Of a stretch of 34,589 bases of DNA, positions 7,513-32,841 are shown one piece after another. Numbering within the stretch: position 1 is the stretch's first letter; the number at the start of each line of letters is the position of its first letter. The position numbers and the translations under genes were made by a program. Under the pieces are notes generated by a model. It searched no databases, had not been told where the DNA came from, and was given only the letters and a program-made list of their open reading frames with translations. Source of the stretch: a virus; IMG/VR virus record IMGVR_UViG_3300045918_000291, positions 1-34,589 of that record; one strand, given 5' to 3'.

Positions 7513-7544
7513 GGTTTAATTATATCACTATTTAATTACGTCAA
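7512..7544 (-). promoter_or_regulatory. Lysis promoter with degenerate operator copy 7
   Basis: The minus strand has an extended -10 TGATATAAT (hexamer 7519-7524) ending six bases before the endolysin ATG. A possible -35 TTGACG at 7539-7544 has only 14 bp spacing. The 16 bp at 7512-7527 match the shared palindrome in 14 positions but have lost symmetry in the half next to ATG. Confidence 0.55.
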
Positions 7545-7965
7545 ATGGTTCGGTATAGGTAACCACATTTATGGTTCTGAGTGGATTAGGATGGTAGGAA
7601 TAGACCCTTTGCAACTGATAACCTTTCCCCAGAGGAAGGTGGTCTGGGACATTCTCGGTTATGGTCGTTACCCCACAACCGACACCTTTTGCTGAAACCG
7701 CTTTAGTTGGTACATCGTAAGCAATGCCGTCTATGAAATGAGAAGTTACTGTGGGAATTTCCGTGGTGTATTTACAATAGTCTATCTGTATATACATATC
7801 TGTTCCCGACTTAACTGGTGAATTTAAGACTTTGAATGGTTGTTTAAAGTATATTGTTTTGTACGGATATACCAGCCAGACAAAGACAGTTATCACTAAT
7901 AAATATCCTAACAGAAGACCCCCCCAACCTAATAAAAGGAAATGCTTTTTTGATAGGTATTTCAT
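7528..7965 (-). CDS. Membrane-anchored extracytoplasmic protein
   Basis: A 145-residue protein with a basic N-terminus (MKYLSKKHF), one strong hydrophobic segment (residues about 10-33) and an external beta-rich domain containing two cysteines (about 64 and 97) that could form a disulfide. No family recognised. It overlaps the preceding 55-residue membrane protein as ATGA and lies just upstream of the endolysin. It may be a lysis accessory, a superinfection-exclusion factor, or a lipoprotein-like surface protein. No lipobox is seen. Confidence 0.6.
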   Translation of the reverse strand: MKYLSKKHFLLLGWGGLLLGYLLVITVFVWLVYPYKTIYFKQPFKVLNSPVKSGTDMYIQIDYCKYTTEIPTVTSHFIDGIAYDVPTKAVSAKGVGCGVTTITENVPDHLPLGKGYQLQRVYSYHPNPLRTINVVTYTEPFDVIK

Positions 7966-8129
7966 CGTTTTATAACTAAGTATATAACAGCTAACAATAC
8001 AGAAGTTACTATCAGGGAAACCATACCATAGACCAGTTTTTCAACCGGGGTTAACCTGAGATTAAATATTTCAATCGTGACAAAAATGCCACGGAGTTTT
8101 TCAATTAGATTGTCGTTATCTTTTGACAT
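7962..8129 (-). CDS. 55-residue single-pass membrane protein
   Basis: A short gene with a soluble N-terminal part (MSKDNDNLIEKLRG) and one C-terminal hydrophobic segment (residues about 33-53) ending in Lys-Arg. This is the topology of a tail-anchored or holin-like protein. The stop overlaps the next start (ATGA), which supports it being real. The -10 TATTAT ends six bases before ATG, matching the leaderless pattern of other units here. Function unknown; a second holin or antiholin is possible. Confidence 0.6.
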   Translation of the reverse strand: MSKDNDNLIEKLRGIFVTIEIFNLRLTPVEKLVYGMVSLIVTSVLLAVIYLVIKR

Positions 8130-8135
8130 ATTTTT

Positions 8136-8141
8136 ATAATA
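8136..8141 (-). promoter_or_regulatory. -10 element, leaderless-type
   Basis: Minus-strand TATTAT ends six bases before the ATG at 8129. No ribosome binding site is present; the -35 is not clear. Confidence 0.45.
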
Positions 8142-31400: not shown

Positions 31401-32488
31401 GTTCCGGTATCGCCAGTATTTCCGGTATCTCCTTGGTTGCCGGATATTCCCGTGTCCCCGGTTATTCCCTGAAGTCCGGTTCCCGTATCTCCATGTGTTC
31501 CGGTATCACCGGGGTTGCCCTGTATCCCTGTATCTCCCCTGTCTACAGCACTGCCTGGGTCGCCCTTTGTTCCTCCGGCTGGAACTATGAAAGTAATTGT
31601 TTTGTCAAATACTTTCATATCAGGCCCAGTCTGAAATGCCTCCTCGTCCCCTTTAAATTGTAGTGATATTAAAATTTCTTCGTCAGGTAAGTTCGCTAAA
31701 AAGTCCCCACTGGTTGCCAAGACATTACCATTAGGACGGACACAGACAACCTCTGAACCAGTAATCGCTTGATTGTGGGTTTTGTCAAAAAGGCGCATTG
31801 AAAAAGTACCGTACCCATTACCTCCATAAAATATCCCCCTAAAGTATGCGTGTGATGCGTTATCGAATTTAGACCTGTCTATAACCACAACTTCAGGTGT
31901 GTATTGGCTACTATCCGCCCAATCGGAAGTGGATATACTGAATAAAGTTGTATTAACCAAAAACGGTACTTCGACATCTCCGTTATATCCCGGGTCGCCT
32001 TTAGTTCCCGTATCGCCTTTTGCGCCAGTGCCGGTATTTCCTTTAGTCCCGGTGTCGCCTTTAGTTCCCGTGTCCCCATGTGTACCGACTCCGGTATTAC
32101 CTTTTATTCCCGTATCTCCTGTGTTTCCCTTACTTCCAGTAATTCCCGTATCGCCCTTTTTCCCAGTATCGCCTTTATCCCCATCAGTTCCGGCTGTCCC
32201 GGTATCACCTTTGACACTGACTCCGGTGTTTCCTTTAATTCCGGTATTGCCAGCAACCCCCTGAATCCCATTGATGCCAGTATCTCCCCGTATGCCAGTA
32301 TTACCACCCCTTCCAGTATCGCCCTTTGTTCCTGTATCGCCCTTATAGCCACGAATTCCAGTATCGCCCCGATCTCCCTTGCCTCCCTGTTTTCCAGTCT
32401 GTTCGATAAGTGCAGTAGTTGTGGGCTGGGTAGTAACGGCTACGTTAGATTGTCTTGTGGTTACGACTATTTCAGCTTGATTCGTCAT
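28421..32488 (-). CDS. Collagen-like fibre protein with carbohydrate-binding modules
   Basis: A 1355-residue protein. Residues 1-32 are a head region ([20 protein letters not shown]). Gly-X-Y repeats dominated by GDT and GNT fill about 35-170, 310-362, 417-465, 525-572, 622-775 and 925-1290, where Thr takes the Y position. Four non-collagen modules break them: a beta domain (about 172-305); three homologous ~50-residue W/Y modules (about 365-416, 467-522, 573-622) resembling CBM5/12 chitin-binding domains ([16 protein letters not shown]); and a jelly roll (about 780-920). The last 65 residues are a C-terminal tip. It likely forms a trimeric fibre. ATG follows AAGGAGGG by seven bases. Confidence 0.85.
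28490..32390 (-). repeat. Collagen Gly-X-Thr repeat region
   Basis: Protein-level repeat of GDTG/GNTG units with varied synonymous codons, interrupted by the modules described for the gene. It also contains regular breaks ([18 protein letters not shown]) where one triplet is replaced by five residues. Long reading frames on the opposite strand here are an artefact of this repeat. Confidence 0.9.
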
Positions 32489-32828
32489 CGGTTACCCTCC
32501 TTGTAATATCACCGACAACTTTGAAAAGTCTCCGTTTTGTGGAAGTAACGACATAATCCTTGATTAGTTGTACGTCCCACCAGTAAGAACCGGGTTCCAT
32601 GTTCTCGGTTTCCTCAGAGGTAAAGTTAACGGTTAGGACTCCATGGTTGTCTCCCGGCCCGACTGTTTTATGAAGTACCGCTTCATCGTCTGGGTCATAA
32701 GGGCTGTATTTTGCTGTGAAATACAATAGGGTGTCGGTAAGATCAATAGCATTGCCATCGGTATCAAGGACTGTCACATTAAATGTAAAATTGTCACCGC
32801 GTATAAATTCAAGGTTATCTGTTGCCAC
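32472..32828 (-). CDS. BppU-like Ig-fold appendage protein
   Basis: A 118-residue protein with an immunoglobulin-like sandwich: FIRGDNFTFNVTVLDTDGNA, VLTVNFTSEETENMEPGSYW and WDVQLIKDYVVTSTKRRLFK. This is the N-terminal module type found in baseplate upper proteins and fibre adaptors, often at the base of appendages. It begins with GTG (MATDNLE), seven bases after TGCTATAAT. It overlaps the collagen gene by 17 nt. It may attach the collagen-like fibre to the virion. Confidence 0.7.
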   Translation of the reverse strand: MATDNLEFIRGDNFTFNVTVLDTDGNAIDLTDTLLYFTAKYSPYDPDDEAVLHKTVGPGDNHGVLTVNFTSEETENMEPGSYWWDVQLIKDYVVTSTKRRLFKVVGDITRRVTDDESS

Positions 32829-32835
32829 TGTTCAA

Positions 32836-32841
32836 ATTATA
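32836..32841 (-). promoter_or_regulatory. Extended -10 TGCTATAAT for fibre operon
   Basis: Minus-strand TATAAT with TGC upstream, seven bases before GTG 32828; no ribosome binding site and no clear -35. Start of the fibre operon. Confidence 0.6.

Follow-up and report, generated by a model that had tools for sequence, protein, structure and literature searches.

The DNA examined in this study (hereafter the window) comprises the 34,589 bp of an IMG/VR virus record, which represents a siphovirus-like phage with nearly all of its genes on the minus strand. Its head and tail genes encode a protease-capsid fusion, head-tail connectors, a tail-tube-like protein, a tail assembly chaperone, a tape measure protein, and Dit, and a portal-MuF fusion gene is cut by the window end. 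The window also carries genes for a collagen-like tail fibre, a GH25 endolysin, and a DUF2341 protein, as well as genes resembling a Cas4-type exonuclease and a primase/helicase. On the minus strand between 5616 and 7512, the endolysin gene precedes a group of small ORFs, of which some have ribosome-binding sites of the sequence GGGGGTGA; this segment is probably a lysis cassette. Within the tail chaperone gene there is a run of nine A nucleotides (16365–16373, minus strand), and the −1 frame is open as far as the start of the tape measure gene. Programmed −1 frameshifting is usual in tail assembly chaperones, and these two features suggest that it occurs in this gene.

A megablast comparison of the window with phages returned 0 matches, and no near relative was identified among isolated phages, for which protein searches yielded distant matches only. 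Several searches were made for clues to the host. Two scans of genome contigs gave, as their sole match, a weak protease-domain match in a Phycisphaerae MAG; a search for tRNAs found none; and comparison of the genes of one relative (G002) with NCBIfam and Pfam produced no lineage marker. An integrase (PF00589) was absent from the six contigs searched, five of them from this clade, and an Rfam search of the window gave no match. The G002 relative also encodes a small RRM RNA-binding protein (NF058537, PF00076; L050:15846–16097), which is unexpected for a phage, and adjoining genes for a Fic-domain and a CAP-domain protein (L050:12977–13465 and L050:13468–14073).

Promoter-like hexamers immediately precede start codons

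The original prediction held that at least ten genes in the window have a −10 hexamer ending 6 to 7 nt before the start codon. On re-check, all of its coordinates were correct, and we found eleven such genes, all of them, like the features below, read on the minus strand. Eight have a 6-nt distance: TATAAT at 7519–7524 (TGa extended) before ATG 7512 of the GH25 endolysin gene, TATTAT at 8136–8141 before ATG 8129, TATAAT at 10452–10457 before ATG 10445, TAAAAT at 13586–13591 before ATG 13579 of Dit, TATAAT at 19268–19273 (TGc) before ATG 19261, TATAAT at 21228–21233 (TGc) before GTG 21221 of the protease-capsid fusion, TACAAT at 23607–23612 (TGa) before ATG 23600, and TATTAT at 24676–24681 (TGt) before ATG 24669. 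Three have a 7-nt distance: TACCAT at 16694–16699 (TGa) before ATG 16686 of the tail assembly chaperone, TAAAAT at 17212–17217 before ATG 17204 of the tail-tube-like protein, and TATAAT at 32836–32841 (TGc) before GTG 32828. Three further starts had been placed at 8 to 9 nt, as we also observe: TACAAC at 3240–3245 (TGa) lies 8 nt before ATG 3231, and TACAAT at 714–719 (TGa) and TATAAT at 10754–10759 (TGc) lie 9 nt before ATG 704 and GTG 10744, respectively. The TGn of an extended −10 element thus precedes 10 of the 14 hexamers, including that of 16686, which is otherwise weak (4/6). As had been noted, three of the starts (10744, 21221, and 32828) are GTG.

The proposed lack of ribosome-binding sites was also borne out, in that predicted Shine-Dalgarno pairing at all 14 starts is −5.3 kcal/mol or weaker, where the median at random positions is −3.3 kcal/mol. 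Start 10445 is not at an operon head: its gene shares 4 nt with the upstream gene, and its −10 element lies within the upstream coding sequence. Several head genes are preceded by an intergenic gap of 14 to 23 nt, which barely exceeds the length of an extended −10 element plus spacer, and the 15-nt gap before 7512 is exactly TGaTATAATtaaacc. Two of the listed starts, 8129 and 19261, belong to small ORFs of 55 and 46 aa, respectively, for which a comparison with four related contigs yielded no homologue. Separately, a perfect TGCTATAAT at 16116–16124 (minus strand) lies 44 nt ahead of the tape measure gene, which starts at 16071, and is possibly a promoter that yields a leader with no ribosome-binding site.

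The arrangement exceeds chance in the window and its relatives

The shuffling comparison that had been recommended was carried out with gene starts of the window re-called automatically, independently of the finding. Hexamers were scored as TATAAT with at least 5/6 matches, including TA at positions 1–2 and T at position 6, and the null came from shuffling these upstream regions with dinucleotide content preserved. Eight of the 39 automated starts have such a hexamer at 6 to 7 nt, where 0.69 are expected (p < 0.001). We then pooled the window with nine related viral contigs, obtained through capsid and tail-tube searches, for a total of 360 starts. The pooled profile has one sharp peak at 6 nt (34 of the 360 starts versus 3.2 expected from shuffles) and is nearly flat elsewhere, at about three per position. 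For the extended −10 sequence TGNTANNNT at 6 nt, the count is 22 against an expected 0.66. Taken contig by contig, six show a clear excess (the window, G002, G005, G006, G003, and G008), and in the other four of the ten (G001, G007, G009, and L002) it is weak or not significant singly. Because 13 of the 41 pooled sites at 6 to 7 nt belong to coupled rather than spaced starts, the −10 elements also occur away from operon heads.

No peak was seen in the control phages lambda, Geobacillus phage GBK2, and spring phage MW202897, or in a set of 38 distant environmental contigs with 413 starts (3 versus 2.5 expected). All three of the latter sites are in a single contig outside the clade, L024, where they account for 3 of 16 starts, and the arrangement may therefore occur elsewhere too. 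Thermus phage P23-45 has a small excess (2 versus 0.14, p about 0.01). The arrangement of −10 elements and start codons in this clade is real and far above chance.

Start codons are supported by orthologues

The same hexamers would be ordinary promoters if translation truly began farther downstream, with leaders and ribosome-binding sites inside what are annotated as N-termini. Weak alternative starts of this kind do exist for 10445 (codons 47–49), 17204 (codon 13), and 32828 (codon 17). However, scanning 50 codons onward from each start revealed no alternative with a ribosome-binding site in 11 of the 14 genes, and in four genes no alternative start of any kind. Moreover, orthologues of seven genes (10744, 13579, 16686, 17204, 21221, 23600, and 32828) in G002, L002, G003, and G001 align from residue 1–7. 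Given these matching N-termini and the general absence of alternatives, we rejected misannotation of the starts and consider this explanation very unlikely.

Most of the aligned orthologues are also preceded by a similarly spaced −10-like element, and many orthologous starts share the promoter despite protein identities of only about 35 to 66%. In G002, TGaTATAAT precedes the orthologues of 32828 (G002:25482) and 10744 (G002:34550) at 6 nt, TGaTAAAAT precedes that of 23600 (G002:33825) at 6 nt, and TGcTATAAT precedes that of 10445 (G002:2947) at 9 nt. The orthologues of 21221 in G002, L002, and G001 keep an extended −10 element at 6 to 8 nt. Exceptions with no obvious −10 element upstream are the Dit gene of G002 (G002:506), whose N-terminus aligns with that of the 13579 gene, and the capsid gene of G003.

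The hexamers resemble sigma-70 promoters

Sigma-70 promoters exhibit a trade-off between the TGn extension and the −35 element. Among the 41 pooled sites at 6 to 7 nt, 20 have TGn, and none of these has an equally good −35 element. Of the 21 sites that lack TGn, five have TTGACA (5/6 or 6/6) exactly 17 bp upstream, where the rate in shuffles is 2% (binomial P = 5e-5). One example is the TTGACA at 17235–17240 (minus strand), located 17 bp upstream of the TAAAAT of the tail-tube-like gene. These TGn and TTGACA-17 statistics suggest that the hexamers behave like sigma-70 promoters. Given a −10 element ending at −7, a start codon 6 nt away would itself begin at +1; this codon is ATG at 33 of the 34 starts with this distance, and thus +1 would be a purine. 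General promoter and terminator scans of the window performed no better than on shuffles because they ignore the position of the start codon.

AU-rich upstream regions help initiation that lacks Shine-Dalgarno pairing in some bacteria, and so the TATAAT-like element could in principle be an A/U-rich translation enhancer within a longer leader rather than a promoter. The scarcity of strong Shine-Dalgarno sequences in the clade is compatible with such a role. In opposition, dinucleotide-matched shuffles fail to generate the signal, its position is fixed to one nucleotide, and TGn and TTGACA-17 are promoter features, which together make an enhancer function highly improbable.

If the elements are promoters, the polymerase that reads them might carry a phage-encoded or phage-modified sigma factor, or be phage-encoded or phage-modified itself, rather than being the unmodified host sigma-A holoenzyme; the mRNAs would still be leaderless. 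Most of the extended −10 sites here have no −35 element, and in phage P23-45 the gp39 protein inhibits −10/−35 promoters while the extended −10 middle and late promoters of that phage are less affected (PMC7403470). Some sites, however, fit the classic TTGACA-17-TAAAAT consensus, and neither a sigma factor nor a polymerase turned up in the proteins searched from the window, which is an incomplete contig. We judge the involvement of such a factor to be unlikely, and favor recognition by the host sigma-A enzyme.

Ribosome-binding sites and translation of inner genes

Genes inside operons had been expected to have either good ribosome-binding sites or overlaps. The overlap portion of this expectation holds, in that most inner genes share bases with the gene before them or directly adjoin it, but good sites are limited to a handful. 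Strong Shine-Dalgarno sequences, often GGGGGTGA, occur in the window only before 1319, 1813, 5882, 11054, 11320, and 32488 and, in the lysis region, before small ORFs near 6241 and 6049. Across the clade, pairing of −9 kcal/mol or better is reached at 17% of coupled starts, and at 8% of other starts without a −10 element compared with 2% of starts with one, although this last contrast is not significant (p 0.31). Because strong Shine-Dalgarno sequences are scarce also at starts without a −10 element, their absence is weak evidence on its own. The suggested two-mode scheme is therefore upheld with respect to leaderless-type starts but is not clean, as strong Shine-Dalgarno sequences are rare clade-wide. 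Since most inner genes overlap or abut their neighbors, the second mode is likely to be mainly overlap or translational coupling.

A palindrome overlaps some of the promoter elements

A 16-bp palindrome, TGATACNNNNGTATCA, is present in the window in seven copies at no more than two mismatches, where 1.3 are expected. It lies just upstream of six starts (704, 3231, 3500, 5560, 16686, and 23600), and four copies (707–722, 3233–3248, 16687–16702, and 23600–23615) contain the −10 elements described above for 704, 3231, 16686, and 23600. A perfect copy is located at 5569–5584 (minus strand) upstream of ATG 5560, where TTGACA is also found 17 bp before TACAAA, and the version TGATATAACTGTATCA occupies 3526–3541 (minus strand), 25 nt upstream of ATG 3500. 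The palindrome was not found at the starts of the relatives. By analogy with the sites of the DdrO regulator, which can overlap the −10 motif in Deinococcus (PMC12340547), it may be a candidate operator bound by a phage regulator.

A model for leaderless expression

The −10 elements, their register, the lack of ribosome-binding sites, and conservation in relatives all support the leaderless-mRNA reading; the clean separation into two modes is the part that does not stand. It is very probable that about a dozen genes, including those for the capsid, tail tube, Dit, tail chaperone, and endolysin, have their own sigma-70/sigma-A type promoters from which transcription would begin at or near the start codon, making the mRNAs leaderless or nearly so. 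In this model, the main (sigma-A) RNA polymerase of the host probably initiates transcripts on, or directly beside, the first codon of each head gene, and ribosomes would begin on the 5′-terminal AUG or GUG with no need for Shine-Dalgarno pairing. The mRNAs of 704, 3231, and 10744 would bear leaders of 2 to 3 nt. Downstream overlapping genes would be translated by coupling or, for a few, from Shine-Dalgarno sites.

Only one convincing terminator was seen in the window, a terminator-like hairpin at 10765–10796 (minus strand) just upstream of the 10744 promoter. It consists of GGGGAGG, a 12-nt loop, and CCTCCCC followed by TTTTT, and was read by eye; its loop exceeds the limit of the automatic scan. 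With a single convincing terminator, transcripts probably read through, in which case a head gene that lacks a ribosome-binding site would depend on its own promoter.

The persistence of the signal in divergent relatives implies that leaderless mRNA is probably translated efficiently in the host, a property that helps to limit the range of candidates. One guess, prompted by the DUF2341 protein of the window and the RRM protein of the relative, is an uncultured lineage of Patescibacteria; our literature search found no study of leaderless genes in this group. A more comprehensive proposal can be offered only tentatively, and we consider it, taken as a whole, rather unlikely: that these are phages of an uncultured lineage, that gap-filling leaderless promoters serve many of their structural genes, that head genes are expressed from their own promoters only, and that some of these promoters are gated by operators overlapping the −10 element. 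As a practical matter, gene callers guided by ribosome-binding sites can overlook true starts in phages like these or put them in the wrong place.

Comparison with known leaderless systems

The arrangement had been regarded as rarely described for phages. It is indeed uncommon, but precedents exist in phage phiYS40 and the cluster O mycobacteriophages, and a mixture of initiation modes is known from Deinococcota and Actinobacteria. In Thermus phage phiYS40, most middle and late mRNAs have no leaders (PMC3594737), and its strategy includes changes in IF2 and IF3 during infection. Like members of this clade, phiYS40 is a tailed phage; its leaderless mRNAs are reported from infection experiments, and those of this clade are predicted from sequence alone. 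The present signal differs in that it belongs to a siphovirus clade of 31 to 49% GC, where it extends over genes for the head, the tail, and lysis. Cluster O mycobacteriophages have three predicted leaderless SigA-like promoters, PL1, PR2, and PL2; transcripts from PL1 and PR2 are predicted to begin with the initial base of the start codon, and PL2 has a similar organisation (PMC4351075). Their genomes also share with this phage a repeated palindrome, although of different sequence, and have three such promoters compared with the eleven at 6 to 7 nt here.

Among bacteria, leaderless genes with an adjacent −10 motif are widespread, particularly in Deinococcota and Actinobacteria (PMC3160421, PMC12340547), where they are mixed with starts that use ribosome-binding sites (PMC12340547, PMC3160421, PMC4633059). 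Three of the features that define such genes (PMC3160421, PMC12340547) are found here as well, namely a hexamer at about 6 to 7 bp at a frequency above chance, no Shine-Dalgarno sequence, and true starts, with 8129 and 19261 having no homologue for comparison. The leaderless genes of Deinococcus-Thermus, Actinobacteria, and other bacteria share with this phage a −10 element about 6 to 7 bp before the start codon and a second set of starts with ribosome-binding sites. Those genes reside on chromosomes of high GC and have a TANNNT consensus, whereas the elements described here are viral, approach the full TATAAT, and often include TGn. Our finding is a well supported further case of known leaderless expression in a different phage clade, and provides a statistically clean, sequence-only example that spans a clade outside the described Thermus and actinobacterial phages.
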